35,386 bases of DNA from an uncultured Fimbriimonadaceae bacterium (GTDB lineage: Bacteria > Armatimonadota > Fimbriimonadia > Fimbriimonadales > Fimbriimonadaceae), in NCBI GenBank assembly GCA_937961665.1, contig CALGMO010000053.1:1-35386 (forward strand). The letters run 5' to 3'. The position numbers and the translations under genes are program-made. A model generated the notes under the pieces. It was not told the origin of the DNA. It saw only the letters and a program-made list of their open reading frames with translations, and searched no databases. Each line of letters starts with the position of its first letter. The first letter of the stretch is position 1. This document shows positions 5,928 through 21,304 of the stretch, piece by piece.

Positions 5928-7364
5928 TCAGCGGCCGCCGGAGCCGATCGGGCCGGTCAGGGGCGGTTTGGCCTCTGCGCCGCCGCCGGATCCGCCTTCC
6001 CTCTTCTGCCCGGGCGGCGTCGGCACCTCGTCCTCCTCGGCGTACACGTCGCCTTGCAGGCCTTGGGCCGACCACTGATCGTCGTTCTCCTTGGTGGAGA
6101 ACTCGAACCAGTCCGCGGCGAGGTCGTCGCCGAGCGAGGTCTTGATGCGGGTGTCCTTCTTGCCCGGAGAGCTGACGAGCCTCAGCGTCTCCTTCTCGCC
6201 GTCGTAGAAGGCGCGGTCGCACCACCCGTAGCGCCACCTTCCGGCGGCGAGCTCCTGGCGCGCCTGGGGCCTGCCCTCGATCATCGCACGGCGCTCACCC
6301 TCCGCGTACCAGTATTCGATCCGCTCGGCCAGCACCACCACGGGATACTTCCGGGCCGACTTCGTCGATCGGACCTCGTCGTCCGCCTTCTTGTCCTCGC
6401 CCGGCGGGGCCGGCGGACGGTTCCTCGCGATCTCCTCCGGAACCTCCGGCTGGAAGGGCGGGATCTCCTCCTCCTTCAACTCCTGCCGGTCCTCCGGCTT
6501 AAGGATCATCTGCACCTTGCCCGTCAGCACGGCGCGCTTCTCCTTGCGGTACACGACGGCCTTCTCGCAGGTCAGGTTCGCCTTCTTGCTGAAGTAGCGC
6601 ACCCCGCCCGTGGCCGTGATCACGTCGGTCTTGGTGTCGCGCTCGATGCGGGGCGCCTTCACGATCACCTCGCCGTCGGTGGCCTCGGCGTCCAGCCAGA
6701 CCTCCAAGCCGGTCGCCGACCGAGTCGCGCCCGACGTCTTGAACGTCCACTTGGACTTCTTCTGCTGCTTGGGCTCGTCCGACAGCGAGAGGGCCGCGAG
6801 GCCGACCCACGTGGCCGGCCCGACCTTGAAGCTGCCGTCCTCGGGCGAGTAGGTCAGGGACGCCGCCTCCACCGACCCGCCGAACAGCCGGCCTCGCACG
6901 AGCCCGGGCACGTGGAGCCTGCCGTTGCGGGCATCGGCCTCGAACGCCGCCACGACCAGATCCATCTCGTCGCCGCGGATCTTGGCTCCGCTGGGCACCG
7001 TCAGCCGGCCGGTGACGTTGTTGTACGACGCGCGCGTGGCTTCGAACTGGTACCGGCCGCCCCGACCTTGGTAGAACCCGTCGCGGACGTAGAACAGGTC
7101 CGTGGCCTGGCGGTCCCTGCGGATGTCCAGCCGCTCCACCTTGGCGCCGCCGACCTGCTCGGCGCCCTCGAAGAACGCCAGCTCGACGTCGTCCATGCGG
7201 ATGGCGACCGAGGCCTCCGCGGGCCCCGGCGTCGCCCGGAACCGTGCGAAGGGATCCAGGCTCAGCAGGTGGCGCGTCCAAGCCGCCAGGCCCGCCGCGA
7301 GCACGCCCGCGGCGCCCCAGGCCAGCGCCGCTCCGATCCGTCGAAACGTCGCCCTCGCCGCCAT
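5928..7364 (-). CDS. LptC/LptA(OstA)-like export-bridge protein
   Basis: The product has 478 residues with one N-terminal membrane anchor (about 9-30, IGAALAWGAAGVLAAGLAAW). Repeated beta-strand segments follow, of the kind found in the LptC/LptA/OstA jelly-roll superfamily that carries lipopolysaccharide or lipids between membranes. The first block (about 50-140) contains FYQGRGGRYQFEATRASYN and PSGAKIRGDEMDLV. A later block (TATGGVRYFSKKANLTCEKA, then EKRAVLTGKVQMIL) resembles the OstA N-terminal repeat. The last 100 residues are low-complexity and Pro/Gly-rich at the very end. Its start codon shares one base with the stop of the upstream lipoprotein gene (TGATG), so the genes are coupled. 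The anchor plus long beta region suggests LptC and LptA functions in one chain, which is inference. Confidence 0.65.
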   Translation of the reverse strand: MAARATFRRIGAALAWGAAGVLAAGLAAWTRHLLSLDPFARFRATPGPAEASVAIRMDDVELAFFEGAEQVGGAKVERLDIRRDRQATDLFYVRDGFYQGRGGRYQFEATRASYNNVTGRLTVPSGAKIRGDEMDLVVAAFEADARNGRLHVPGLVRGRLFGGSVEAASLTYSPEDGSFKVGPATWVGLAALSLSDEPKQQKKSKWTFKTSGATRSATGLEVWLDAEATDGEVIVKAPRIERDTKTDVITATGGVRYFSKKANLTCEKAVVYRKEKRAVLTGKVQMILKPEDRQELKEEEIPPFQPEVPEEIARNRPPAPPGEDKKADDEVRSTKSARKYPVVVLAERIEYWYAEGERRAMIEGRPQARQELAAGRWRYGWCDRAFYDGEKETLRLVSSPGKKDTRIKTSLGDDLAADWFEFSTKENDDQWSAQGLQGDVYAEEDEVPTPPGQKREGGSGGGAEAKPPLTGPIGSGGR

Positions 7365-8689
7365 CAGTTCGCCACGAAGCTCCCCACGTCGCTGATCGTC
7401 CGGCTGGAGGTCCCGTTCGCCACGCCGAGCACGAGGAAGTAGTACCGCCGACCGGGGGCCAGACGAGGGCCATCGTAGGACACGCTCGTTCCCGACGTGA
7501 AGCCGCTCTCCCAGACCGGATCGATGGCCATCGCCGGGAACCGGTCGTAGAGGTAGACCTTGTAGCGCTCCGCTCCGAGCGCCGCGAACCAGCGGAACGG
7601 CCGCGGGCCGAGGCTGGCCGGATCCAGCCGTAGGTCGCCCAGCGTCCTCGCCGAAACCCTCTCGCTGGGCGCGCTCTCCGAGCGGCCGCCGTCGGGGTAC
7701 GTGGCGTTCAGGCACGTCACCTCGTAGTAGTAGGTTCGACCTTCGATCAGAAACTCGTCGTTGTCGGCGTAGAACGAGGCCGTCGGATCACGGAGGAGCT
7801 CCACGCTGTTCAGACTCCCCGAGGGGGTGGTTCCGCGGTAGATGCCGAAGCCGAACAGGTTCCGGTCGACGATCGGGTCCCAGTACAGGTCGATCTCGAT
7901 CGGATTCCCGAGGATCGTGGATCGCGTCTTCGCCCCGGGGCGCCTGCCCTCCCTCGCCTCGAGCCAGTCCTTGAAGGCGCGGAACGCTTGGGCGCTCTCG
8001 CGCGACCGAGAGATCGCAGCCGGTGCGGTCCACGAGACAGCCTCGACGTTCGTCGGCGGATCGAGGGCGACGTCCGCGGCGTCGTTCAGCACGAAGTTCA
8101 GCGCCCGGGTCTCGCCCGCGACGAGGGTCACCGTCACCGAGTCCGACTCGAAGCCGCGCCCGTTGGCCATCACCAGGTAGCGGACGCCCGACTGGAGGTC
8201 GCGCAGCAGGGCCTCGCCGTTCGCATCGGTCACCTCGGTGGCGCCGCTCAGGGCGTCCGGGTTGTCGGGGATGGCGAACAGCCGCGCCCCCTGCAGCACG
8301 TACCCGAAGCGGTCGCGCACCTTCGCACGGATGGCGGCGGTCTGCGTCGAGCGGACCATCGTGATGTTCACGCTCTTGGCGCGTTCGCGGTCGTAAACCC
8401 GGGCCAGGTTGGACCCGACGTACCGCACCCCGTCGATCGTGATGTCCGCGCGAACGGTGGCGTCCACCGCGGGAACGTTGCGCAGCAGGTACTGCCCGGC
8501 GGAGTTCGTCGTGGCGGTCCTGCCCCCGACGCCGCTCACGGTCACGCGGGCCCCGCGCACCACGCCGCCGTCGGGGCCGAACACCACGCCCGCCACCTCG
8601 CCGTACCCCGCGCCAGAGCCGGTCCCGCCGCCGCCTCCGCACCCGGCGGCCACGGCCAGAAGCCCGATCCATGCCCAATGTCTGCCCAT
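7364..8689 (-). CDS. lipoprotein with carboxypeptidase-regulatory-like and Fn3-like domains
   Basis: The product has 441 residues. The N-terminus WAWIGLLAVAAGC is a lipoprotein signal with Cys17 as the lipidated residue, followed by a Gly-rich linker. Two transthyretin-like/carboxypeptidase regulatory-like beta domains come next. The first (about 30-105) begins EVAGVVFGPDGGVVRGARV, and the second (about 118-205) has TDANGEALLRDLQSGVRYLV. Two fibronectin-III-like modules follow: about 215-345, with IEIDLYWDPIVDRNLFGFGI and YYYEVTCLN, and about 350-441, with YKVYLYDRF and PGRRYYFLVLGVAN. No catalytic motif is seen, so an envelope binding or scaffolding role is likely. AGGAG lies 6 bases before the ATG. 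This is one of the few starts here with a well-placed Shine-Dalgarno site, as expected for an internal operon gene. Confidence 0.75.
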   Translation of the reverse strand: MGRHWAWIGLLAVAAGCGGGGGTGSGAGYGEVAGVVFGPDGGVVRGARVTVSGVGGRTATTNSAGQYLLRNVPAVDATVRADITIDGVRYVGSNLARVYDRERAKSVNITMVRSTQTAAIRAKVRDRFGYVLQGARLFAIPDNPDALSGATEVTDANGEALLRDLQSGVRYLVMANGRGFESDSVTVTLVAGETRALNFVLNDAADVALDPPTNVEAVSWTAPAAISRSRESAQAFRAFKDWLEAREGRRPGAKTRSTILGNPIEIDLYWDPIVDRNLFGFGIYRGTTPSGSLNSVELLRDPTASFYADNDEFLIEGRTYYYEVTCLNATYPDGGRSESAPSERVSARTLGDLRLDPASLGPRPFRWFAALGAERYKVYLYDRFPAMAIDPVWESGFTSGTSVSYDGPRLAPGRRYYFLVLGVANGTSSRTISDVGSFVAN

Positions 8690-8750
8690 CGCCTGCTCCT
8701 CTCGGATCCTTTCTTCTTCACACGCGCGGCGCGCCGACTGGTTTTGCGCG

Positions 8751-9806
8751 TCAGCCCATCGTCTGCTGGATGGCCTCGACGTTGACCCGGGCCAGCGTCC
8801 TCAACTCCTCCGTTCGGGCCTCGAGCCTCGCACAGGCGGCCTCGCGGTCCTTCAAGAGACTCTGGACTCTGGCGAACAGCGCGTCGGCCGACGCCTTGCC
8901 CGGTGCCAACGGCAGCTCGGTCGCCCGGGCGAACGCCGCCACCTTCGGATCGTAGTCGACCATCACGGAGGGAACCCCCACCGTAGCCGCGAGGATGCCC
9001 GCATGCAGCCGCACCGCCACGACCGCCTCCATGCGTCGGATCCTTTGCTGCACCTGCACCGGAGACGGCACCCGTCTCAGCTCCGGCACCTTGCCGCCCT
9101 GCCGCTTGGCGATCTGGTCCAGCAGCGGCCCGTCGAACGCCCGGTCCATCTCGATCAGCACCGGCATCAGGCCGGAGTCGAACAGCTTGCGCGCCAAATC
9201 GCCGAACACCGCGGCGATGGAAGGATCGTCCTTCACCGGCCTGGGCGCGAGGCCTACGGTGCGCATCGAGCCTACGCCGAACGCCTCCCCCTCGCCGCCC
9301 TGAGGGTTGGGCAGGAGGAACGCGGGGTCCGCGCCCAGGCGCACCGGACGGCTGACGCCGAGCGACTTCAGCGCCTGCGCCGAGGCCGGGTCCCGGACCA
9401 CGATCGCGTCCGCCTTCTCGAACGCCGCGGCCGCCCATCGCTTGCCCAGCGTCCTCCGGAGCGGCCCGACGCCCTGGCCCACCAGCAGGACGCGCTTGCC
9501 GGCGCGCGTGGCCTCCGACACGAGGCTCGAGTAGTAGAACACGCTGCGGAGGCTGGTCGCGTCCTGGAAGATGCTCCCCCCGACGAACACCAGCGCGTCG
9601 CTGTCGCCGAGGGCCCTGCGAAAGGCCGCGCGATCCTTCCTCGGCACGCTCGGCAGGCCGTGCACCCGGTAGGTCTCGTCGGGAGCGCCGCTCATCACGG
9701 TGAACGAGTGGGCGTAGGGCCGCAATCCGTGGATCAGGCCGAGGAGGACGGCATCGTCGCCGAGGTTGCCGCATCCCAGATAGCCCGCAAGCAGGAGTCT
9801 AGCCAT
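8751..9806 (-). CDS. csaB: polysaccharide pyruvyl transferase CsaB
   Basis: The product has 351 residues and two Rossmann-like halves of the pyruvyl transferase family. The N-terminal motif LLLAGYLGCGNLGDDAVLLG matches CsaB. VFVGGSIFQDATS, LVGQGVGPLR, IVVRDPASAQALKSLGV and the C-terminal VVAVRLHAGILAATVGVP are the other family blocks. CsaB adds ketal-linked pyruvate from phosphoenolpyruvate to a cell-wall polysaccharide, which creates the ligand for S-layer-homology domains in Bacillus and Thermus. The ATG at 9806 overlaps the end of the upstream DUF5693 gene by 8 bases (ATGGCTAG). No SLH-domain protein lies in this window. The next gene begins 61 bases downstream. Confidence 0.88.
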   Translation of the reverse strand: MARLLLAGYLGCGNLGDDAVLLGLIHGLRPYAHSFTVMSGAPDETYRVHGLPSVPRKDRAAFRRALGDSDALVFVGGSIFQDATSLRSVFYYSSLVSEATRAGKRVLLVGQGVGPLRRTLGKRWAAAAFEKADAIVVRDPASAQALKSLGVSRPVRLGADPAFLLPNPQGGEGEAFGVGSMRTVGLAPRPVKDDPSIAAVFGDLARKLFDSGLMPVLIEMDRAFDGPLLDQIAKRQGGKVPELRRVPSPVQVQQRIRRMEAVVAVRLHAGILAATVGVPSVMVDYDPKVAAFARATELPLAPGKASADALFARVQSLLKDREAACARLEARTEELRTLARVNVEAIQQTMG

Positions 9807-11781
9807 TGTGGTCCCCGTCCTTCCCGATTCCCTCGGTCTGCCGGTCGGCCGAAGCCCCCGCAGGACCGGCCTCCGGGTCCTCGGCCGGGCAAAGGCCGTC
9901 CTCCACGGCTTGCGGAGCCGACGGTGGCGCCCCAGCCGCCGTGCCGCCGGAGACCGGCTGGATGGCCTGCGGGACAAGGCAGGAGAGGAGCCAGCCGAGG
10001 GCACCGCCGACCGCCACGCCAACCAGCACGCGGGCCAAGCCGAGCCAGAACGGCGAGTGGATGTGGCAGAAGGTGTTCACGATGCTCGTCTGGCCGATCA
10101 TGCCGACCGCCAGCAGCAGCGCCAGCCACCCGGCGTTGGAGGGCGCCCGGTCGCCCGCCGTCCGCCACCTCGCCCACAGCGCCAGCCCCAAGAAGAGCGC
10201 GGGGTGGCCGATGAACACCTCCTTGGTGCGTGGCCGCACCAGCAGCAGCTGGTCGAGCAGGCTGCGGAGCCGCAGTTCCAGGCCGCTCACGGCGCCGGGG
10301 TTGTCGTTGCCGGTGCGCATCAGCATGAACGCCACGGCGCCGAGCAGCGCGACGCCGAGCAGAGCCTGCGTCCAGAGCACCGGCCGAACCAGGGCCTGGC
10401 GCCAGTCGCACCAGCGAGCGAACGACCAGACGCCGACGATCGCGATCGGAAAGAAGTGCGCCGCCTTGACCCCGAGGAACTGCTCCGCCCGAACCATGTA
10501 CGGGAGCCCGTTCAGCAACCCAGCCACCGCGAGCCCGCCCACCAGGCTGACCCCGCAGGCGACGAGGTAGACGACCCAGGGCCTCCGGCCGAGAGCGGCC
10601 TCGGCCGCCCTCAAGGCCAGCAGGGGTGCGGCTATGGCCCCGGCCAAGGCCAAGAGCGGCCGGGCGCCGGGAGACCAGCAGGCCAGCCCCAGCAGACCCA
10701 GCGCGGCCGCCCCAACCGAGAACGCTCCGCCGCCTAACCCGTACGACTCCGCGGCGGCCAGAACCAGAGCGGCGACCGCGAGGCCGGTCAGCGCGAACAG
10801 CCAGGCCGGGCCGGCGGGATCCTCGTACGGCTTTGCGGGACCCAGCGCCAGGCCCTCGGAACGGACCGCACGCGCCACCCGGCCCACGAGCCGGGCGAAC
10901 TCGTCCAGCGGGGTCGCGCCCGCGTCGGACATCGGGCGCACCAGCAGCATCCGGATGCCCCGCTCGCTCGCCGCCCGGGCGAAACGCTCCAGGTACTCGC
11001 GCTCGGTCATCTTGTCCATCTCCGCGCCTTGGGCGGTGTGCAGCCGAACGACGATGTCCGGCGCCTTCGCAACCATTGCGGAGTCGCCCGCGATCTTGGC
11101 GAACTCGGGTGAGACGTAGGCCATTCCCGCCTGCCGCAGGGCGTCGGCCGTCTCCGCCAGCAGAGCCCGATGGCCGAGCACCTTGTCGCCCAACGGCAGA
11201 TAGGCCTTGGCGCCGAGCTCCCTAGCCCACGCGATCGTGGCGCGGACCGAGTCTGCGGACATCGGCGCGTTGGAGCCGCGCCACACGACCGTCAGTCCGG
11301 AGGACCAGACCGCCTTGGCCTTCTTGGCGTCCAACCCGAGGCTGACCGTGCGGAGCGCCTCCACCGGCACCCCCGGGTTGGAGACCACGCCGGGCTCCAC
11401 CGCCTTGACGGGACTGTGCGGAAACCGGATGCGGATGGCGCGCACGATGCGCTCCTCCGCCCCCGGCCAGCAGACGATCGTCCCGCCCTCGCCGAAACCC
11501 AGGCGATCGGTGGAGATCCAGCCTTGGAGCGTCTCCTCCTCCAGCACCACCGCCTGCACGCCCTGTGCCTTCAGAACGCCGAGAGCCTGCTGGAAGCCAA
11601 CTCCCGACGCCGCGGCCATCTGGGTGACGACCGGCTCCTCCACGGCGAGGGACACGGCGCGGTTCCTCGCCTCGGCGCGCCAGCGCAGGCCTCCGCCGAC
11701 CAACCCCAGCACGGCGACGGAGCCGACGGCCAGCAGCCACCAGCGCCGAAACTCAAGCGGCGTAACGACTCTCATAGACAT
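9799..11781 (-). CDS. DUF5693 family polytopic membrane protein
   Basis: The product has 660 residues. One membrane helix near the N-terminus (about 14-31) is followed by a large extracytoplasmic domain (about 35-325) with MAAASGVGFQQALGVLKAQG and an (alpha/beta)-type segment. About ten further helices fill roughly 330-620. The late segments TKEVFIGHPALFLGLALW and VNTFCHIHSPFWLGLARV sit in the membrane region and resemble DUF5693 proteins, which are often encoded next to csaB. The function is unknown. A role in making or moving the polysaccharide that CsaB modifies is inferred from linkage. Two in-frame ATGs exist, at 11781 and 11775, and the gene overlaps the rhomboid gene by 29 or 23 bases. 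The C-terminus is a Pro/Ala-rich cytoplasmic tail. Confidence 0.8.
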   Translation of the reverse strand: MSMRVVTPLEFRRWWLLAVGSVAVLGLVGGGLRWRAEARNRAVSLAVEEPVVTQMAAASGVGFQQALGVLKAQGVQAVVLEEETLQGWISTDRLGFGEGGTIVCWPGAEERIVRAIRIRFPHSPVKAVEPGVVSNPGVPVEALRTVSLGLDAKKAKAVWSSGLTVVWRGSNAPMSADSVRATIAWARELGAKAYLPLGDKVLGHRALLAETADALRQAGMAYVSPEFAKIAGDSAMVAKAPDIVVRLHTAQGAEMDKMTEREYLERFARAASERGIRMLLVRPMSDAGATPLDEFARLVGRVARAVRSEGLALGPAKPYEDPAGPAWLFALTGLAVAALVLAAAESYGLGGGAFSVGAAALGLLGLACWSPGARPLLALAGAIAAPLLALRAAEAALGRRPWVVYLVACGVSLVGGLAVAGLLNGLPYMVRAEQFLGVKAAHFFPIAIVGVWSFARWCDWRQALVRPVLWTQALLGVALLGAVAFMLMRTGNDNPGAVSGLELRLRSLLDQLLLVRPRTKEVFIGHPALFLGLALWARWRTAGDRAPSNAGWLALLLAVGMIGQTSIVNTFCHIHSPFWLGLARVLVGVAVGGALGWLLSCLVPQAIQPVSGGTAAGAPPSAPQAVEDGLCPAEDPEAGPAGASADRQTEGIGKDGDHNG

Positions 11782-12421
11782 AGCGCGCCAAGACCCGATC
11801 CCGGCCCCCCATCACCAGCACCGTCACCATCCCCGCCAGAAAGCCTCCGATGTGCGCCCAGTTGGCAACCCCCTGGCTGGGAAAGAACACGTCCTTCAGG
11901 AAGAAGAACCCGAGGAGGATGAACGCCTGAACCTCGACCTCCCAAAGGTAGACCATCACGCGGATGGAGTTCGTCGGGAAGAGCAGCAGGTACATCCCCA
12001 ACACCCCGCTGATGGCTCCCGAGGCGCCGACGATCGGCACGCCGGAGAAGGGGGCGACGAACACTTGGGCGACCAGAGCGACGAAGCCCCAAGCGAAGTA
12101 GTACAGACCGAACCTCCAAGGCCCGATGGCCTGCTCGATCGCCCGGCCGAACACGGCGAGGTAGATCATGTTGCCGCCCAGGTGCCACAGGTTGGCGTGG
12201 AGAAACTGGGCCGTGAAGAGCGTCGCCAGCGGGGCCCTCTCGCCACCCCGCAGGGCGTCGATCAGCTCGTTGGGTCGGCATCCGAGGTCGGAGAACAGCA
12301 CCGGAGGCCCGAACAGCGAGCCCCCGCGGTCCCACAGGTAGATCGCGACGTTCAGGAAGACGAGCGTCCAGACCACCGTGGACGGCCGCCGCAGCACCTG
12401 GTCGTCACCGATCGGGATCAT
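11753..12421 (-). CDS. rhomboid family intramembrane serine protease
   Basis: This 222-residue protein has six predicted membrane helices. The catalytic Ser134 is in GASGA, and the partner His190 is in NWAHIGGF on a later helix. LHANLWHLGGNMIYLAVFG is the conserved loop-1/TM2 element with the H-x3-N-type residues (His80, Asn84). Rhomboids cut single-span membrane proteins within or near the bilayer. The substrate is unknown. The position as first gene of the DUF5693-csaB operon suggests a part in surface-protein processing, which is inference. The start at 12421 is supported by a -10 (TAGAAT) 8 bases upstream. The gene faces a divergent hydrolase gene with only 45 bases between the two start codons. 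Confidence 0.92.
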   Translation of the reverse strand: MIPIGDDQVLRRPSTVVWTLVFLNVAIYLWDRGGSLFGPPVLFSDLGCRPNELIDALRGGERAPLATLFTAQFLHANLWHLGGNMIYLAVFGRAIEQAIGPWRFGLYYFAWGFVALVAQVFVAPFSGVPIVGASGAISGVLGMYLLLFPTNSIRVMVYLWEVEVQAFILLGFFFLKDVFFPSQGVANWAHIGGFLAGMVTVLVMGGRDRVLARYVYESRYAA

Positions 12422-12429
12422 GCACCGCC

Positions 12430-12435
12430 ATTCTA
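12430..12435 (-). promoter_or_regulatory. -10 element TAGAAT of the rhomboid operon
   Basis: GGTAGAAT on the minus strand ends 8 bases before the rhomboid ATG. It is the likely promoter for the whole minus-strand operon down to 5928. The gap carries no usable Shine-Dalgarno site (GGCGGTGC). The -10 of the divergent hydrolase gene begins 16 bases away. Confidence 0.5.
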
Positions 12436-12451
12436 CCGACAGACGTTCTGG

Positions 12452-12457
12452 CATAAT
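12452..12457 (+). promoter_or_regulatory. -10 element CATAAT (extended TGG) of the hydrolase gene
   Basis: TGGCATAAT is an extended -10 and ends 9 bases before the GTG start at 12467. It has no recognisable -35. Its footprint must overlap that of the divergent rhomboid promoter. Confidence 0.5.
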
Positions 12458-12466
12458 CCGCGACGG

Positions 12467-13684
12467 GTGGCACCGAGAGCTTTCTGGGGTCCGACGACCG
12501 TTCTCCTCGCCGCGGCGGTGTGCGCCATGGCGCGGGCTCAGGGCGGCCCGCCTGCGATCGACGCCCCGCTGCCGACGGTCGCGTTCCAGCCTTGGAGGAG
12601 GGTGGAGTCGCTCGCCGGCCCCGCCGAATACAGGGCCTCCTTCCCCAGCGCCTTCGTCTCCGGCGTGCCGAACAACGACACGGTCCATCTGTCCGCGTTC
12701 CTTCCCGAAGACCGGCCGGGACCGTATCCGGCGGTGATCGTCCTGCACTACCTGGGAGCCGACGACCTCAGGCCCACGAGGCTGCTGGCGGAGGAGCTGA
12801 ACGAGCGGGGCATCGCCGCGGTGCTGCTCGCCCTGCCGTACCACATCCAGCGGACTCCGCCCGGCGCGCGGTCCGGCGAGATGGCGCTCTCGGGAGACCC
12901 GGCGAGAATCCGCGACGTGGTGGTGCAGTCCGTTCTGGACGTTCGGCGCTCGCTGGACTTCCTTGCAGCCCGTCCCGAGATCGACGGCAAGAGCGTCGGC
13001 ATCGCCGGCATCAGCCTCGGGGCGGTTATCGCCTCGCTCGCTTACTCCGCGGACTGCCGACTTCAGCGCGCGGCGATCGTGCTCGGCGGTGCCGATCTCG
13101 CCCACATTCTCTGGCACAGCTCGCTGACCGGACCCACCCGCGAGGCGATGAGGAGGCGGGGCTTGGACCTGGACGCGTTGCGGCGAGAGCTGGCGGACGT
13201 CGAGCCCCTGAACCGCGCCTCCTCGCGGACCGACGGAAGGGCGTTCCTGGTCGGGGCGCGCTTCGACACGGTGATCCCCGCGGAGGACGTGCGCAAGCTC
13301 GCCGAGGCGCTGCCCAACGCGACGACCCTGTGGCTCGACACCGGCCACTACGGCGGGGTGTTCGTCCAGCGGCGCGTCGCCCGCACGGTGGCCTCGTTCT
13401 TCGCCGAGGAGTTCGCCGGGCGAAGGTTCGTCGCCCCCGCACGCTTCTATGCACCGACGGTGCGCCTCGGCCTTCTCGGCGACTCCGCCGACGGATTCCA
13501 GGTGGGCGCCGCCCTGGACCTCTTCCGGACAGGCTCGGCCCGCGGCTGGATCGGCGCCGCCCTCGCCACGCCGAACGGCGCCAAGGCGTTCGTGGGCTAC
13601 CAGGCCGGTCCTTCGCTGGGCGGGGGCCTGACCCTGGGGCCGGGGGGGCCATCGGCGGCCGTCTTCTGGAGCGTCGTGCTGTGA
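12467..13684 (+). CDS. exported alpha/beta hydrolase
   Basis: The product has 405 residues from GTG 12467. The N-terminus (VAPRAFWGPTTVLLAAAVCA, then MARAQ) is a signal peptide with likely cleavage after ARA. The alpha/beta-hydrolase core has AVIVLHYLGADD (oxyanion region), the nucleophile Ser183 in GISLGA, Asp267 in GARFDTVIP and His294 in DTGHYGG, a complete and correctly ordered triad. The layout resembles acetyl-xylan-esterase or dienelactone-hydrolase-like exported enzymes. The last 90 residues, after about 310, are Gly-rich and beta-prone (LGLLGDSADGFQVGAALDLF, GAALATPNGAKAFVGYQAGP) and look like an added surface or barrel-like tail. The substrate is unknown. The stop codon overlaps the start of the following GNAT gene by 4 bases (GTGA). 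Confidence 0.85.
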   Translation: MAPRAFWGPTTVLLAAAVCAMARAQGGPPAIDAPLPTVAFQPWRRVESLAGPAEYRASFPSAFVSGVPNNDTVHLSAFLPEDRPGPYPAVIVLHYLGADDLRPTRLLAEELNERGIAAVLLALPYHIQRTPPGARSGEMALSGDPARIRDVVVQSVLDVRRSLDFLAARPEIDGKSVGIAGISLGAVIASLAYSADCRLQRAAIVLGGADLAHILWHSSLTGPTREAMRRRGLDLDALRRELADVEPLNRASSRTDGRAFLVGARFDTVIPAEDVRKLAEALPNATTLWLDTGHYGGVFVQRRVARTVASFFAEEFAGRRFVAPARFYAPTVRLGLLGDSADGFQVGAALDLFRTGSARGWIGAALATPNGAKAFVGYQAGPSLGGGLTLGPGGPSAAVFWSVVL

Positions 13685-14406
13685 CCGGTCCCGCCGATCC
13701 TGGTCTCGAGAATCTCGTGGAGACGTACGCGGCTCTCGCGTTGGCCCTCTACGGCACGGAGGTGCGTCGGTGGGAGACCGGCATCGCAGCGCGGAACCCA
13801 TCGGACCTGCCGTCGACGAGCTTCGTCGTCTCTTGGTCGGATTCCCCGGCGTGGTACGAGGAGGCCGTGTCGCGCTTCGAGCGCTGGACCCCGAAGATCG
13901 TGTACCGAGTCGGTGCCGTCGGCCGTGCGACCGACGAGCTGTGGCACGCCCAGACGCTCTCTCTCCTCGAATCCAGACTCCTGGACCCCGAGGAGCCGTT
14001 CACGCTCGTGCCCGAGGAGACGCCCGAGGCCCGCGCCGAAGTAGCAGCCTTCATGGCCGGGATCTTCTTCGAGGGCCAACAGCCCGAGCGGCGCCGGGCG
14101 ATCGAACAGGCGACCGCGCGCGCCGTCCGGTGCCGGCTCTACTCGGTGTTGGACGGAGGAAGGCGCGTGGCGGCCGTCATGCTGCACCGCACCCCCGGCG
14201 CCCTGGGACTCTACAACCTGTGCGTCGTGCCATGGATGCGGGGGCGCGGACTCGGCGCGTCGATCGTGCGGCAGGTCCAGACCGACGCCTCCCGCGCCGG
14301 CGTGCCGGTGGTGCTGCAGTGCCGAGCCGAGCTGGCGCCGTGGTACCGCCGGCTCGGCTTCCGGGCGGTGTCCGAGCTCGCGGTGCTCGTGCCGCCCTCG
14401 GTCTGA
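13681..14406 (+). CDS. GNAT family N-acetyltransferase
   Basis: The product has 241 residues from GTG 13681, which overlaps the upstream stop as GTGA, so the genes are coupled. The acetyl-CoA-binding motif A is LCVVPWMRGRGLGASIV, with R187-G-R-G190-L-G192 matching the R/Q-x-x-G-x-G/A signature. PWYRRLGFRAVSEL near the C-terminus is the usual GNAT ending. The N-terminal 125 residues are not a recognisable GNAT core and may be a degenerate first copy or a substrate domain. The acceptor is unknown. Coupling to an exported hydrolase is noteworthy because GNAT enzymes act in the cytoplasm. Confidence 0.85.
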   Translation: MTGPADPGLENLVETYAALALALYGTEVRRWETGIAARNPSDLPSTSFVVSWSDSPAWYEEAVSRFERWTPKIVYRVGAVGRATDELWHAQTLSLLESRLLDPEEPFTLVPEETPEARAEVAAFMAGIFFEGQQPERRRAIEQATARAVRCRLYSVLDGGRRVAAVMLHRTPGALGLYNLCVVPWMRGRGLGASIVRQVQTDASRAGVPVVLQCRAELAPWYRRLGFRAVSELAVLVPPSV

Positions 14407-14441
14407 CTCCAGGCGGTCCCTCGGCCCGCCGGAATCCGGTG

Positions 14442-14447
14442 TATCAT
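14442..14447 (+). promoter_or_regulatory. -10 element TATCAT of the prepilin-like gene
   Basis: TATCAT ends 15 bases before the GTG at 14463, giving a leader of about 8 bases with no Shine-Dalgarno site. No -35 is seen. Confidence 0.45.
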
Positions 14448-14462
14448 CGCATTGGTGCCGAA

Positions 14463-15317
14463 GTGCGGCGTCGCCTGGCTTTCTCGCTGATCGAGCTGTT
14501 GGTGGTCGTGGCCTTGGTGGCCATGCTCTCCGCGCTGCTCCTGCCCGTGTTCTCCAGCGTGAAGGCCTCCTCGCAGCGAGCCGCCTGCTCCTCCCGGTTC
14601 CACCAAGCCCAGCTCGCGACGATGATGTACGTCGGAGACTGGGACGACACGTTCCCTCTGGTCGCCTACCTTCCGGGCGCGACCGCGGGTCCGGAAGCCG
14701 ACCGCACCTGGGTTCAGTGCCTGTTTCCATATGGCTTCGCCGTGGGGCACTGGCGATGCCCTTCCGCCCCTCCGTCGCCTGCCGAACAGAGCCCATCGTT
14801 CGACCCCCATCTGTCCCTTGGCGACGTGTCGGCGCGGTACTACACCGAGAGCTTTCTGGCGCACATCGGCCTGAACTACCTGTACCTCTCGCCGGTGGTC
14901 GCCATGGAGGAGGCTTGGGTACCCCAACCGAGAAGCCTGTCGATGGTCGCATCGCCCTCCACGATGCTCCTGTTCGTCGACTCGGCGTCCCCGGGCCAGC
15001 GACCTCCGGCCGCCGGCAGCTGGGTGGTGCTGCCGCCCTGCCGCTACGCGGTCCAGAGGACCCAGGTGCTCGACACCTTCCTGCTGGGAGGTCGGCAGGT
15101 CTTCACTCCCATTGCCGGGTGGCTCCCGCCGAAGGCCTCCGGCGGCCCGTGGTTCGGCGGCGCCTGGCCTTGGCACGCCGGACGCACGATGACCGTCACG
15201 GTCGACGGAAGCGCCCGCGCGCGCACCGTGGCCGAGCTTGCGAACGGGTGCGACGTGCGGCCCAACTGGAGCGGGTTCGTCCGCCGGGACAGCCTGTACC
15301 CTTGGGACTTGGAGTAG
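14463..15317 (+). CDS. prepilin-like protein with H-X9-DG motif (DUF1559-like)
   Basis: The product has 284 residues. VRRRLAFSLIELLVVVALVA is a type IV prepilin/pseudopilin leader: cleavage would fall between Ala6 and Phe7 (Gly is more usual at -1), and Glu11 is the conserved Glu+5. One long hydrophobic helix is followed by CSSRFHQAQLATMMYVGDWDD and a mainly beta C-terminal domain. His238-(nine residues)-Asp248-Gly249 in WHAGRTMTVTVDG is the H-X9-DG motif of pilin-like proteins abundant in Planctomycetes, Armatimonadota and relatives. The protein should be processed by a prepilin peptidase and held at the cell surface or in a secretion-type fibre. The start is the GTG just before the leader. 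Confidence 0.88.
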   Translation: MRRRLAFSLIELLVVVALVAMLSALLLPVFSSVKASSQRAACSSRFHQAQLATMMYVGDWDDTFPLVAYLPGATAGPEADRTWVQCLFPYGFAVGHWRCPSAPPSPAEQSPSFDPHLSLGDVSARYYTESFLAHIGLNYLYLSPVVAMEEAWVPQPRSLSMVASPSTMLLFVDSASPGQRPPAAGSWVVLPPCRYAVQRTQVLDTFLLGGRQVFTPIAGWLPPKASGGPWFGGAWPWHAGRTMTVTVDGSARARTVAELANGCDVRPNWSGFVRRDSLYPWDLE

Positions 15318-15372: not shown

Positions 15373-18300
15373 ATGCGCGCACGATCGGCGGCCTTTCTGC
15401 TTCTCCTAGCGGGAGCCTCGCTCTGCGGGGCTGCGGAGGACAAGCCGAAGACCCCCGACGAGATCAAGGGGGAGCGCGTCGCGCAGGAGTACCGGGAGCT
15501 GGCATCCTCGGTGGATCTGGCCCAGATTGAGCGCACCTTCCGAGACGTGGCGGCGTTCGGCCCGAGGCTCGCGGGCAGCGAGGGCGAGGCCGAAACTCTG
15601 GCCTACGCCGAGCGGCGCTTCCGGGAGCTGGGCCTCCGGGGCATCCGCAGGCACACGTTCCGCGTGACGGTGCCCGACCCCGACGCCGTGGGCGAGCTCG
15701 CCTCCTCGGACGGTCGGTGGAGGGTGCCGGTCTATCCCATGTGGCCCAACCTCGTCCGTACGTCCACCTGCGACGTCCAGGGGAGGGTCGTGTACGGCGG
15801 CGACGGCTCCCTGGAGTTCCTCGCCGGCCGCGAGGTGAAGGGTTCCATCGTGCTGATGGAGTTCAACTCGGCGGGGAGGTGGCGCAACGCCGCCAAGCTC
15901 GGCGCCAAGGCGGTCGTGTTCCTCTCGCCGCGCCAAACCCTGCGGATGGAGGCCGAGCAGCGCTTCAGCAGCGTGCCGCTGAACGTCCCCCGCTTCTATC
16001 TGGAGACGCGCCTCGCCGGTCCGGTGCTCGAGGCCGCCACGAGGGGAGCCACGGCGCGGCTCTCCTGCGTGCAGAGGTGGATCGTGCGGGAATCCGCCAA
16101 CGTGATCGGCGAGCTTCCCGGCACCGACCGGTCGCTGGCGGGCGAAACGATCGAGCTGTTCGTACCGGTCGACTCCATGTGCGTGGTGCCGAAGATGGCC
16201 TACGGCGCGGAGGGTATCGGGAACCTGGCCGCCGCGCTCGAGCTGGTCCGCATCTATCGCCAGCGCGAGCATCGCAGGCCTCTCCGCGTGATCGCCTCCG
16301 GATCCCACGCGCTGGCCCTGCAGGGCGCCCGCGAGTACGTCGACGACTGGATTCGGAACAATCGCCCCGCGACGCTCCTCACGGTGACTCTGGACCTCGC
16401 CAGCGGCAACCGGGCCCTGGGAGTCTTCGGCCGCGGGTTCTTCGTGGACTACCGGTGGGAGGTCCACAGCGCGGTCGCAAGCCTGGCGAGGATCCTCCGC
16501 AAGCACGCCGAGAGGATGGCGCCGATCCTCGGCGCCCCGGATCCCCGCAACACCATCAGCGACACGATCAACCAGCAGGACAACCGCTGGTGGAGCAACA
16601 ACATCCCCACCCGGTTCGCGTTCGACTGCGAGATGTTCCTGATGGCCTCGGCGAACGCCGTCACGATGGCGACCATCGACGACAGCCGCCCCTTGGTGGA
16701 CACGCCGCTGGACACGCTGGAAAACGTCAACCCGCTGAACATCCTCCGGCAGACGCAGACCCTCGCCTGCGCGTTCCTCCACCTGCTCAACGACACCTCG
16801 GCCAAGGGGGCGACCACCGACTTCCGCTTGGACCTGGAGCCCGCCAAGCCCAAGCGAATGACCCTCACCGGCGGCTTCGCCGTGGTCGAGGGGCGCGTCG
16901 TCCGCTACGACCCGCTCAAGAGCTTCGTCCCCGACGTTCCCGTCGCCGGCTCCCTGGCCGTCAACCTCAACGCCAACAAGACGATGATGGGCGTGCGCGG
17001 CGACATGGTGACGACGACCGAAGGCGAACAGGCGCACTTCCGGTTCGTCGGCGTGGCCCCCACCACGTGCTACTACCAAGGCTGGGGGTCGAGCTGGGTC
17101 CGTCCGACCAGGCTCGCCGCGTTCCACATCGCTCCGAACGGCGAGATCGACCAGGCTCCGGCGGACGGCCTGCGCGGAAGCATGGACTATCCCCGCACGT
17201 TCGAGCTGAAGACGGGCTTCAAGTCCACGCCGATCGTGGTGTTTCCCTGCGTGGCCACCAACTTCTACGACCTGGTGGACCCGCAGGACCTGAAGGCCCT
17301 CACCGACTACCAGGTCCTCGACGCGGCCACGGACGCCCCGCCGGAGAACTTCGGGTTCTTCCGGGACGACAAGGACATGAGGATCAACACCGAGTCCGAG
17401 GAGACCGCGGTGATGTTCACCATGCCCGGCCAAAGGTTCAAGCTGCTGATGGGCACGGGCCTCGGCGAGGTGCGCCTGATCCTGACGAACGCGGACGACC
17501 GGCACCCCGCCGGCAAGGGCTATCTCGCGTTCGGGGCTTCCACCGCCGGCGCGACGGGCCGCGACGCCATCGCCGTCGGGGGCGTGTTCCCGTTCGTCGC
17601 CCTGCAGACGGCCCGCGACATCCTGGCGATCAACCAAGACCGGTTGAACAAGTTCTCGAAGTACCGGATCGTGAGCAAGGGCGTGGAGGACCTCCAGGCC
17701 ACGGCGCGCGACGAGGCCTCCCTGGCCGAAGGCGCCCTGGCCGACCGCGAGTGGCCGGCGGTCGACCAGCACTCGCGCGCCGCCTGGGGCTACGCGCTGC
17801 GCGCCCACCCGGTAATCCAAGGAACGGCCAACGACGTGGTGAACGGGGTGGTCTTCTACCTGTTCCTGATCATCCCGTTCAGCTACTTCCTGGAGAGGCT
17901 GCTCTTCGGCAGCCGCAGCCTCACGGCGCAGCTCGTCGGGGCGGCGGGCGTGTTCTTCGCCTCGTTCGGTCTGCTGTACGTCATCCACCCCGCGTTCGAG
18001 ATCGTGACGAACCCGTCGATGATCTTCATCGCGTTCGTGATGGGCGCGCTGAGCATCATCGTGATCGGGTTCATCCTAGGCAAGTTCGAGTCCTCCCTGA
18101 AGGCGCTGAAGAAGGCGCAGAGCGGTGTCCACGAGGTGGACATCCGGCGCATGAGCGTCGCGATGGCGGCCTTCAACCTCGGGGTGAGCAACATGAGGCG
18201 CCGCAAGGCCCGCACGTTCCTCACCACGCTCACGCTGGTGGTGATGACGTTCATCGTTCTGAGCTTCACGTCGATCGTGAACGAGATCCAGCTGAAGGAG

Positions 18301-19929
18301 GTGTCCAGCGACGTGCCGGCCCGCTACACGGGCATGCTGTTCCGGGACCCCGGCCTGAACCCCTTGCCGACCTCGACGTACTACCAGGTCGCCAACGAGT
18401 TCTCCGGCAAGGGCAAGGTCGCCCGGCGGGCGTGGTACTACGGCGCCGGCCAAGGGGACAACGGCGTGCTCTCGCTGCGCGCCGCGGACCGGACGTTCGA
18501 CGCGCGCGTGCTCGTGGGCATGGATCCTTCCGAGGCCGAGATCACCCGCCCTCAGGAGGCGCTGCTGCCGGGCGGCCGCTGGTTCCGCAACGGCGACCGC
18601 AAGGTGGTCATCCTGCCCCGGCCGATCGCCGAGGAGCTGAAGATCAGCCCCAAGGAGGTCGGCAAGGCCGTCGTGCAGTTCGCCGGCATCGACTACACGG
18701 TGATCGGGATTCTGGATCCGGCGATCCTGCGATCGATCATCGACTTGGACGGCGACGAGGTGCTGCCCGCGGACTTCTCCCTGTCGAGCCAGTTCCAGAT
18801 GCAGTCGCGCACCGGCACCGACGCGTTCCGCAAGTTCATCCGCTACGACCCGGCGCGGGTGTTCTTCATGCCGGCCGACACCGCGATCGGGCTGGGCGCC
18901 CAGACGCGCTACATCGCCGTGAGCCTTCCGGCGCCGGATGTGACCGAGAGGGCCCTGAAGAACCTGATGCCGCGCATCCGCCTGAACGTGTACGCGGCCG
19001 CGCCCGGCCCCGGCGGCAAGCTCCAGGTCAAGCAGTTCAGCGCGCAGCAGGCGTCCTCGGGAACGGGCATCGGCCTGGTGATCCTCCAGATGCTGATCGC
19101 CTCGGTGTTCGTGCTCAACACGATGATCGCCAGCGTGCACGAACGCACCCGAGAGATCGGCATCTTCAGCGCGATCGGCCTGGCTCCCAACCACATCGCG
19201 ATGCTGTTCTTCGCAGAGTCGCTGGTGTACGGGGTGATCGGCGCGGTGTTCGGATACTTCGCGGCGCAGATCTCCGCCAAGGTCATCGTGGCCACCGGGG
19301 CGCTGCCGGGCTTGTACCTGAACTTCAGCTCTACGTCGGCCGTGCTGTCCGCGGCGCTGGTGATGGCGGTGGTTCTGGCCAGCACGATCTACCCCGCCAA
19401 GAAGGCCAGCAAGATCGCCGCCCCCGCGCTGGAGGGCGACCTCCTGGACGTGCTGCCCGAGGGCGACGAGTGGCGCATCCTCCTGCCGTTCAGCATCAGC
19501 GGCCGCGAGGCCGAGCCGATCATCCGCTACCTCGCGGACTGGTTCCGTGCCTACGAGGAGTACACGATCGGTTCGTTCGTTACCTCGGGCACCACTCTGG
19601 GGCACTTCGAGTCCCGGCACGGCAGGGGGACGTACACCCGGACAACCGCATGGATCGCGCCGTACGACCTCGGGGTGAGCCAGATCGTGCAGATCCAGTC
19701 CGAGCCCACCGCGCTGGAGGACGTGTTCGAGCTGACGCTCATCCTCACCCGCCTGGGCGGCGAGCCGGGGAACTGGATCAACCTGAACAAGCGGTTCGTG
19801 GAGGACCTGCGCAAGCAGTTCCTGACTTGGCGCACCATGGACGAGGACCAGCGGGCGAGGTACGCCGACGCTCGGCCGGACGAGGAGGGCGGTCTTCCGG
19901 CGGGCCAGCCCCAGCCGGCCGCGCCATAA
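15373..19929 (+). CDS. M28-peptidase-like domain fused to an FtsX/MacB-type permease
   Basis: The product has 1518 residues. A signal peptide (1-20, FLLLLAGASLCGA) leads into an M28-like domain: GPRLAGSEGEAETLAYAERR at about 63, a PA-like insert with GSIVLMEFNSAGRWRNAAKL, NVIGELPGTD, LDLASG (Asp341) and DTPLDTLENVN. The usual zinc site looks degraded. The HxD motif reads P265-V-D267, the bridging Asp is Glu280 (GAEG), the Glu-Glu pair is His312-Ala313, and the late His is Asp443. A carboxypeptidase-regulatory-like beta region lies near 495-600. Three helices (about 825-905) precede an FtsX-type permease: helix 946-970, an extracytoplasmic domain, then helices near 1230, 1275 and 1325 containing ASVHERTREIGIFSAIGL. 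A soluble C-terminal domain spans about 1355-1518. No ABC ATPase is adjacent. AGGA lies 7 bases before the ATG. Confidence 0.85.
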   Translation: MRARSAAFLLLLAGASLCGAAEDKPKTPDEIKGERVAQEYRELASSVDLAQIERTFRDVAAFGPRLAGSEGEAETLAYAERRFRELGLRGIRRHTFRVTVPDPDAVGELASSDGRWRVPVYPMWPNLVRTSTCDVQGRVVYGGDGSLEFLAGREVKGSIVLMEFNSAGRWRNAAKLGAKAVVFLSPRQTLRMEAEQRFSSVPLNVPRFYLETRLAGPVLEAATRGATARLSCVQRWIVRESANVIGELPGTDRSLAGETIELFVPVDSMCVVPKMAYGAEGIGNLAAALELVRIYRQREHRRPLRVIASGSHALALQGAREYVDDWIRNNRPATLLTVTLDLASGNRALGVFGRGFFVDYRWEVHSAVASLARILRKHAERMAPILGAPDPRNTISDTINQQDNRWWSNNIPTRFAFDCEMFLMASANAVTMATIDDSRPLVDTPLDTLENVNPLNILRQTQTLACAFLHLLNDTSAKGATTDFRLDLEPAKPKRMTLTGGFAVVEGRVVRYDPLKSFVPDVPVAGSLAVNLNANKTMMGVRGDMVTTTEGEQAHFRFVGVAPTTCYYQGWGSSWVRPTRLAAFHIAPNGEIDQAPADGLRGSMDYPRTFELKTGFKSTPIVVFPCVATNFYDLVDPQDLKALTDYQVLDAATDAPPENFGFFRDDKDMRINTESEETAVMFTMPGQRFKLLMGTGLGEVRLILTNADDRHPAGKGYLAFGASTAGATGRDAIAVGGVFPFVALQTARDILAINQDRLNKFSKYRIVSKGVEDLQATARDEASLAEGALADREWPAVDQHSRAAWGYALRAHPVIQGTANDVVNGVVFYLFLIIPFSYFLERLLFGSRSLTAQLVGAAGVFFASFGLLYVIHPAFEIVTNPSMIFIAFVMGALSIIVIGFILGKFESSLKALKKAQSGVHEVDIRRMSVAMAAFNLGVSNMRRRKARTFLTTLTLVVMTFIVLSFTSIVNEIQLKEVSSDVPARYTGMLFRDPGLNPLPTSTYYQVANEFSGKGKVARRAWYYGAGQGDNGVLSLRAADRTFDARVLVGMDPSEAEITRPQEALLPGGRWFRNGDRKVVILPRPIAEELKISPKEVGKAVVQFAGIDYTVIGILDPAILRSIIDLDGDEVLPADFSLSSQFQMQSRTGTDAFRKFIRYDPARVFFMPADTAIGLGAQTRYIAVSLPAPDVTERALKNLMPRIRLNVYAAAPGPGGKLQVKQFSAQQASSGTGIGLVILQMLIASVFVLNTMIASVHERTREIGIFSAIGLAPNHIAMLFFAESLVYGVIGAVFGYFAAQISAKVIVATGALPGLYLNFSSTSAVLSAALVMAVVLASTIYPAKKASKIAAPALEGDLLDVLPEGDEWRILLPFSISGREAEPIIRYLADWFRAYEEYTIGSFVTSGTTLGHFESRHGRGTYTRTTAWIAPYDLGVSQIVQIQSEPTALEDVFELTLILTRLGGEPGNWINLNKRFVEDLRKQFLTWRTMDEDQRARYADARPDEEGGLPAGQPQPAAP

Positions 19930-19939: not shown

Positions 19940-21304
19940 ATGTCCCAGAAACCGGTTGCGCGCGTCATCACGCTCGGTTGCGCCAAGAACGAGGTCGACA
20001 GCGAGGAGATCGCCGGCGTGCTGGCCCAGGCGGGCTATGCGCTGGACGGCCTCGCCGAGCGATCGGACGTGACCGTCGTCAACACGTGCGGGTTCCTCGA
20101 GGCCAGCAAGCGCGAGAGTCTGGAGGCGATCCGCGCGGCGCTGCGGGACCGCGCCGCGGGACGAACCGGCAAGGTGGTGGTGGCGGGCTGCCTCGTGCAG
20201 CGCATGGGCGAGGAGATCCGGCGGCTCGTCCCGGGCGCGGACGCCTACGTCGGCGTGGGGCAGATGGCCCGCTTCGGCGAGATCGTCGGGGCCGCCCGCG
20301 AGGGAGCCACGGTCGCTCTGGACCGTCCGCACCACCTGTGGGCCGACGTGAGGTCCAGGGCGCGCTCCGGACCGGCTTGGACGGCCTACCTGAAGCTCAG
20401 CGAGGGGTGCGACCACGAGTGTGCCTTCTGCACGATCCCCAGCTTCCGAGGCAAGCACGCCAGCAAGCCGATCGAGCGCATCCTGGAGGAGGCCCGGCGC
20501 CTCGCCGAGACGGGCGCGCGGGAGCTGTGCCTGATCGCGCAGGACACCACCCAGTACGGGCACGACCTGTACGGCGCGTTCCGGCTGCCCGAAGTGATCC
20601 GCGAGGTCGCGAAGGTGGACGGCGTGCGCTGGGTGCGCGTTCTCTACCTGTATCCGACCCGCGTCGACGACCGGCTGATCGAGACCCTGGCGACCGTGGA
20701 GCAGGCCCTGCCGTACATCGACATGCCTCTGCAGCACAGCCATCCGGAGGTGCTCCGGCGCATGCGGCGCCCGTGGGACGGCGAGCGCTACCTGCGCCTC
20801 TTCGAAAGGATCCGCGCCGCGATGCCGGACGTAGCCATCCGCACCACGTTCATCGTGGGCTATCCGGGCGAGACCGACGAGGAGTTCCGGCACCTGCTCG
20901 ACTTCGTGCGTGCGGCGCGCCTGGACCGGGTCGGCTGCTTCCTGTTCAGCAGAGAGCCCGGAACGCCGGCGGCGGAGCTTCCGAACCAGGTCTCGTTCCG
21001 GGAGAAGCAGCGCCGGCACAACGAGCTGATGGCGCTCCAGCAAGCGGTCTCGCTCGAGGTCAACCGCTCTTGGATCGGCCGGGAGCTCGAGGTGCTGGTG
21101 GAGGGCCGCACCGACACCGGCTGGAGCGTCGGGAGGTCGTTCCGCGACGCTCCCGAGATCGACGGTCTCGTGTACACGGATCGGCCCTGCCGGCCCGGCG
21201 AGTTCGCGCGTCTGCCGATCACGGCCGCGGAACCGTACGACCTGGTCAGCGCGGGCCGCCCCAAGAGGCCGGGACGCTCCCGGCGTCCCTCGAAGCCGCT
21301 CTGA
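19940..21304 (+). CDS. rimO: ribosomal protein S12 methylthiotransferase RimO
   Basis: The product has 454 residues. The N-terminal UPF0004 domain has the three auxiliary-cluster cysteines Cys14 (TLGCAKNEVD), Cys50 (NTCGF) and Cys84 (AGCLVQ). The radical SAM cluster is Cys157, Cys161 and Cys164 in SEGCDHECAFCTIPSFRG, a form typical of RimO rather than MiaB. IDMPLQHSHPEVLRRMRRP and TTFIVGYPGETDEEF follow, and a C-terminal TRAM domain covers about 375-440. RimO adds a methylthio group to the conserved aspartate of ribosomal protein S12. The gene has its own -10 overlapping the preceding stop codon and faces the 16S rRNA gene tail to tail. The last 15 residues are a basic tail. Confidence 0.95.
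   Translation: MSQKPVARVITLGCAKNEVDSEEIAGVLAQAGYALDGLAERSDVTVVNTCGFLEASKRESLEAIRAALRDRAAGRTGKVVVAGCLVQRMGEEIRRLVPGADAYVGVGQMARFGEIVGAAREGATVALDRPHHLWADVRSRARSGPAWTAYLKLSEGCDHECAFCTIPSFRGKHASKPIERILEEARRLAETGARELCLIAQDTTQYGHDLYGAFRLPEVIREVAKVDGVRWVRVLYLYPTRVDDRLIETLATVEQALPYIDMPLQHSHPEVLRRMRRPWDGERYLRLFERIRAAMPDVAIRTTFIVGYPGETDEEFRHLLDFVRAARLDRVGCFLFSREPGTPAAELPNQVSFREKQRRHNELMALQQAVSLEVNRSWIGRELEVLVEGRTDTGWSVGRSFRDAPEIDGLVYTDRPCRPGEFARLPITAAEPYDLVSAGRPKRPGRSRRPSKPL

Follow-up and report, generated by a model that had tools for sequence, protein, structure and literature searches.

The giant gene in the window, a 35,386-nt stretch of DNA that makes up the whole of contig C53 of its genome, probably provides an ABC machine of Armatimonadota, heteromeric and of type VII (MacB/LolCDE/FtsEX superfamily), with its large permease subunit; this machine would work in the way proposed below. 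The gene (15373..19929, + strand; 1518 aa) is one continuous ORF. Its product begins with a signal peptide, followed by an M28-fold ectodomain and then a middle domain; after these come three additional TM helices, a four-helix MacB/FtsX permease (seven TM helices altogether) and, at the end, a cytosolic C-domain. The fusion of an M28-like domain to an FtsX/MacB-type permease, which the earlier note had claimed, is borne out by the uninterrupted ORF, by Pfam, profile and fold matches, and by its conservation in every relative examined. The notion that an assembly or frameshift artefact joined a peptidase gene to a permease gene is rejected as having practically no probability: codon composition is uniform along the ORF, with a third-position GC of 91-96% from end to end, and the same fusion recurs in full-length relatives (37-94% identity) across the phylum, in many independent genomes that include complete single-contig ones.

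A prepilin-like gene of the DUF1559 type, with an N-methylation motif and an uncertain GTG start (14439..15317, +), lies 55 bp upstream of the giant, and this gene order is repeated in three further loci of family f1 (L034, L090 and L092). Prepilin-like DUF1559-type genes also recur beside the giant, or within its operon, in many relatives. A rimO-like gene (19940..21304, +) begins 10 bp past the stop codon of the giant and is probably not functionally linked to it; loci L088 and L035 likewise have similar frames close to the giant. Farther upstream, two genes lie on the opposite strand, one for a DUF5693 protein (9799-11781, -; 2.5e-110) and the other for a large protein whose C-terminal domain is a rhomboid (11753-13801, -; 1e-29).

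The M28 domain (residues 35-478; 15475..16806, +) follows a signal peptide (residues ~1-22; 15373..15438, +) visible in the family-averaged hydropathy. Peptidase_M28 is not called on the single sequence of the giant by Pfam or NCBIfam, and Pfam gives a PA-like insert just below its cut-off (residues 135-188; 15775..15936, +; 9.5e-5), which is matched by half of the family members aligned (9/18). Among the same 18 members, Peptidase_M28 is matched by 15 (best 7.1e-14) and Nicastrin, weakly, by three. Searched against the PDB, a profile of the domain finds the aminopeptidases 2ek8 (1e-23) and YwaD (3e-14) and also the transferrin receptor; one of its best matches by sequence is nicalin (8e-11), an M28-fold protein that serves as a subunit of a membrane complex. 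A model of the ectodomain, predicted from only six sequences (mean pLDDT 50, mostly 65-92 over the first ~300 residues), aligns with BSAP at Z 19.6 over 336 residues and with the Aeromonas/Vibrio aminopeptidase (AAP) at Z about 19.5, with an rmsd of about 3 A over 220. Together with the family profile matches, these alignments of the predicted model identify the fold as M28, and the domain agrees with family M28 in both fold and sequence homology. In one relative (L018, genome G039), the domain contains an insert resembling two hydrophobic helices, the sole such case in the 18-row alignment and maybe an assembly fault.

The metal site was surveyed in 64 family members from across the phylum, the window's protein included, using the numbering of the latter and giving the Aeromonas residues in brackets. 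The equivalent of the HxD motif (residues 265-267; 16165..16173, +), located by PDB profile and family alignment, has Tyr at position 265 (His97) in 56 of 64 members, Pro in the window's protein alone and His in a single member, followed by Asp at position 267 (Asp99) in all 64. The family alignment places E280 (16210..16212, +) at the bridging Asp117, a position occupied by Glu in 53 members and Asp in 10, so that 63/64 have one or the other. At H312-A313 (16306..16311, +; PDB profile and family alignment), the catalytic Glu151 is replaced by His in all 64 members, and the position of Glu152 is variable. D341 (16393..16395, +), at the position of Asp179, is invariant (64/64), and the HTxxD motif of His256 reads D443-T-P-L-D447 (16699..16713, +), with Asp at 443 in 61 members and at 447 in every one; the last two assignments are also from the family alignment.

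Three of the five two-zinc ligands (H, D, E, D, H) are therefore replaced in the window's protein, at the H97, E152 and H256 positions, and neither the full ligand set nor the catalytic Glu is present in any of the 64 members. As a positive control, an intact M28 enzyme from the same genome (L154:1319-2653, on contig C108) was aligned on the same columns and reads H, D, EE, D, H; a long overlapping frame downstream of it resembles alpha-L-fucosidase by eye. The substitutions named in the earlier note (P265, E280, H312-A313 and D443) thus stand exactly as given there, and no intact two-zinc site turned up in the structure or sequence alignments. With three of the five zinc ligands gone, ordinary M28 chemistry by the ectodomain of the giant is very unlikely, judging from the alignment. 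The same note took the domain to be inactive; the canonical two-zinc site is indeed absent, but a simple verdict of inactivity is not sustained, given the near-invariant new residue set and the Aeromonas aminopeptidase entry 2anp. This structure, among the closest in the PDB, is titled 'Functional Glutamate 151 to Histidine mutant' and carries the same substitution as the invariant H312 of the family, leaving room for some activity. Catalytic inactivity of the domain, as read from the residues, is accordingly graded as likely but unproven. Few positions of the domain are as strongly conserved as the new His and Asp, a pattern that mere decay would not show, suggesting that the site has been rewired rather than lost.

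The conserved set (D267, H312 and D341 throughout, D/E280 and D443 nearly so) also suits a reading in which the M28 domain is still a hydrolase and receives its substrate from the ABC machine, as proposed for YbbAP-TesA, where a hydrolase is the partner of a type VII ABC transporter (PMC12646458). One metal could then be held by Glu/Asp280, Asp341, Asp443 and His312, or His312 could act as general base; the functional title of 2anp points the same way. We regard this as unlikely, since each zinc site lacks at least one ligand (H97 to Tyr, E152 to variable, H256 to Asp) and canonical M28 chemistry cannot run as known, while the surroundings of D443 are of low confidence in the model and the clustering of the new residues comes from the fold alignment only. 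Distinctly unlikely, in our estimate, is a phylum-wide ABC machine whose M28 fold has become a new hydrolase or transferase, through the His that took the place of the catalytic Glu and a metal pocket rich in Asp and Glu, and is gated directly by ATP hydrolysis via the fused permease. The favoured reading is that the M28-fold domain binds a ligand without peptidase activity.

Beyond the M28 domain lies a middle ectodomain (residues 479-820; 16807..17832, +), which is modelled at low confidence and gave nothing significant in the PDB profile search. The membrane topology was taken from hydropathy averaged over the 18 aligned members. Three extra TM helices (residues ~822-905; 17836..18087, +), at about 822-842, 850-872 and 883-905, precede the permease, which follows the FtsX order: a single TM helix, an ectodomain, then a further three TM helices. 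The first permease helix and the MacB-like periplasmic core, which sits between the first two permease helices, occupy 18214..18771 (+), and MacB_PCD is called by Pfam at residues 948-1133 (1.1e-7, above its cut-off). The FtsX domain, corresponding to TM5-7, is called at residues 1235-1348 (19075..19416, +; 3.5e-15) and is likewise seen in the hydropathy and the PDB profile search, where the nearest relatives of the permease are MacB, YtrF, LolF and LolC. Between permease TM2 and TM3 lies the coupling-helix motif ERTREIGIFSAIGLAPN (residues ~1257-1273; 19141..19191, +), which family alignment and PDB profile search align to ERTKEIGVRMAIGARQIN of MacB (ERTREIGIFSAIGL with MacB ERTKEIGVRMAIGA), and in which E1257, R1258 and G1269 are invariant across the 18 members. 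The membrane part of the giant is poorly predicted (pLDDT 46).

The loop at 905-948 contains ten K/R and three D/E, an excess of positive charge that places the C-domain in the cytosol. This family-specific domain (residues 1354-1518, ~165 residues; 19432..19926, +) has no sequence relative in the PDB, where the only two matches are short (~20 residues), to designed SAKe proteins, and are taken as chance. It is modelled with a local pLDDT of about 70, and its fold matches are weak (best Foldseek E 0.011, best Z 8.2), possibly indicating a helix-grip (START/Bet v 1-like) fold, a resemblance in the predicted model that is too weak to use. The additional helices and the C-domain of about 165 residues pointed out in the earlier note are thus both present in the hydropathy and the 18-member alignment.

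No ABC ATPase is encoded on the 35-kb contig, in agreement with the earlier note, and on this ground the giant might be an orphan permease functioning without one. We consider this highly improbable: the coupling-helix motif, which is the ATPase contact in the superfamily, is conserved, and a LolD-like candidate ATPase lies on a second contig, C18, adjoining a mini-FtsX that co-occurs with the giant throughout the phylum. Clustering of the genes surrounding the 64 family members, with FtsX, PqqD and ABC_tran identified by Pfam and NCBIfam, revealed the operon to which these genes belong. In many families the common order is giant, OPT-like multipass protein (~690 aa), prepilin-like gene (in some), DUF4 (~320 aa), PqqD, mini-FtsX (about 200-250 aa) and ATPase; in other families an independent order is found, namely mini-FtsX, ATPase, giant and OPT-like protein. 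In the window's genome, the set is divided over three contigs, with the prepilin-like gene and giant on C53, the OPT-like gene on C68 (26189-28126), and DUF4 (7059-8021), PqqD (7880-8422), mini-FtsX (8278-8982) and ATPase (8986-9714) in a row on C18, as stop-to-stop frames. The mini-FtsX is flanked by ATPase, PqqD and DUF4 in most of 15 other genomes checked alike. Because it forms an operon with the giant in other genomes and adjoins mini-FtsX on C18, the C18 ATPase is, by gene context, the candidate cognate ATP-binding subunit of the giant.

The mini-FtsX has four TM helices, with only a short loop where MacB carries its periplasmic domain, and retains the coupling-helix motif, as does the giant. 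The partner ATPase is nearest to LolD, MacB and FtsE. Neither it nor the giant is a LolD, LolC or LolE equivalog, the ATPase scoring 234 bits against LolD TIGR02211 (cut-off 307.75) and the giant 16.1 bits against the lolCE model (cut-off 362.45). The relationship of the OPT-like protein to OPT is weak (Pfam match in 2/25 members, best 3e-7), and its profile finds no match in the PDB. In multi-copy families, giant copies often adjoin a DUF6785/DUF6784 membrane protein (L103, L104, L105, L112, L117, L121 and L123) comparable in size to the OPT-like partner; the profiles of the OPT-like protein and the DUF6785 neighbours are weakly alike (hhalign prob 56). DUF4 gave no match in the homology search, and no homology was found between it and the C-domain.

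Searching with the family-specific C-domain gave matches in 187 of 291 Armatimonadota genomes, covering 116 of 156 genera. Among the matches listed, the frame is 1400 aa long or longer in about five-sixths and shorter in the others, many of which are apparently ended by contig edges. In two related complete genomes (L007/L091 of G019, and G160) the giant ends early, at an in-frame TGA near the 3' end. A tblastn search of plasmids for relatives outside the phylum gave generic FtsX permeases only. Co-inheritance was computed for four components, with ATPase and PqqD linked by gene neighbourhood. Mini-FtsX is found in 190 genomes, the OPT-like protein in 196 and DUF4 in 190; all four components are present in 170 genomes, none in 87 and some in 34, many of the last being incomplete or fragmented. 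Giant and mini-FtsX occur together in 177 genomes, the giant alone in 10, mini-FtsX alone in 13 and neither in 91 (Fisher p about 7e-49, kinship ignored), and pairwise p values among the four components lie between about 1e-48 and 1e-55, a significance inflated by relatedness. Presence is patchy within the window's own family and within genus g19, where the components are gained and lost together. Some genomes carry two or more giants and usually a single mini-FtsX, which counts against the machine proposed here. The co-inheritance could also arise from separate machines serving one pathway, mini-FtsX and ATPase then acting as a homodimeric transporter.

Type VII ABC permeases comprise two four-helix units over two ATPases, whose ATP-driven movement is relayed to periplasmic domains, and the units occur as homodimers, as heterodimers (LolCE) or fused to each other, in which case there is a single ectodomain, as in BceB, or a pair of them, as in YbbP (PMC5985334, PMC12646458). 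With MacB and its relatives, the giant system shares the 4-TM core, the MacB-like periplasmic core, the coupling-helix motif and a LolD/MacB-like ATPase in the gene set. It differs from MacB in the added N-terminal M28-fold and middle ectodomains, three extra TM helices and cytosolic C-domain, in having an unfused ATPase, and in that no MacA adaptor was recognised among the conserved neighbours. LolCDE likewise combines two unlike FtsX-type permeases with a LolD-like ATPase; by contrast, the partner permease of the giant lacks a periplasmic domain, the giant has an M28-fold ectodomain, the ATPase falls below the LolD cut-off, and roughly one in three genomes of the phylum lacks the system. BceB resembles giant plus mini-FtsX in having one ectodomain per two permease halves, and YbbAP has a hydrolase partner where the giant carries a hydrolase-like domain (PMC12646458, PMC5985334). 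Unlike the 10-TM fusion of BceAB, the giant and mini-FtsX halves are separate polypeptides. Compared with YbbAP-TesA, the hydrolase-like domain of the giant is fused to the permease and its site is altered. TesA itself is an unrelated hydrolase.

The M28 aminopeptidases (Aeromonas/Vibrio AAP, BSAP and YwaD) share with the giant the fold, the Asp179 and Asp99 equivalents and sequence homology, and BSAP-type enzymes also the PA-like insert, whereas the giant has Tyr (Pro in the window), a variable residue, Asp and His for His97, Glu152, His256 and Glu151. Nicalin, nicastrin and the transferrin receptor share the use of an M28 fold without the canonical site as the ectodomain of a membrane protein, and nicalin has in common with the giant a VxPxLxxGA(D/E) stretch; these proteins are eukaryotic and not ABC transporters, in contrast to the giant family with its new, nearly invariant residue set. 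The profile matches to these three and the lost zinc ligands lend some appeal to a pure sensor or scaffold, in which a binding ectodomain of this kind is coupled to an ABC part that signals or remodels without handing over a substrate. FtsEX, which transmits without transporting, is a precedent. We think this reading rather improbable, as the co-inherited OPT-like protein and adjoining PqqD point to the movement or handling of some molecule, and the conserved neighbours include no recognisable peptidoglycan hydrolase.

In the machine that we propose instead, the giant and mini-FtsX would form a heterodimer over two ATPases, and its TM bundle would open and close as ATP is bound and hydrolysed, shifting the single large ectodomain. 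The M28-fold domain would capture a ligand, most likely a peptide or a peptide-bearing envelope molecule, at the conserved Tyr/Asp/(Asp or Glu)/His/Asp/Asp set (where the window's protein has Pro instead of Tyr), and would then release this ligand to a partner, which may be the OPT-like transporter. That the ligand is of peptide type is a guess of low confidence, prompted by the M28 fold, the OPT-like partner and PqqD. The fusion of the M28-fold ectodomain to an FtsX/MacB-type permease, kept in every relative examined, makes a mechanotransducer-like role of the giant plausible, and giant, mini-FtsX and ATPase together would form a split, one-ectodomain version of the type VII machine.

Nothing was found in the literature on such a system in Armatimonadota, and the gene set is apparently undescribed so far. 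Type VII ABC systems perform mechanical work in the envelope, including lipoprotein release, wall-hydrolase control, efflux and lipid hydrolysis, and the pairing of an ectodomain-bearing giant with a permease half that has no ectodomain would add a new architecture to this superfamily. The gene family is also a natural case in which to ask whether the fold of a di-zinc peptidase has been rewired or merely lost, and what appeared to be an orphan permease becomes part of a defined candidate complex with named partners.
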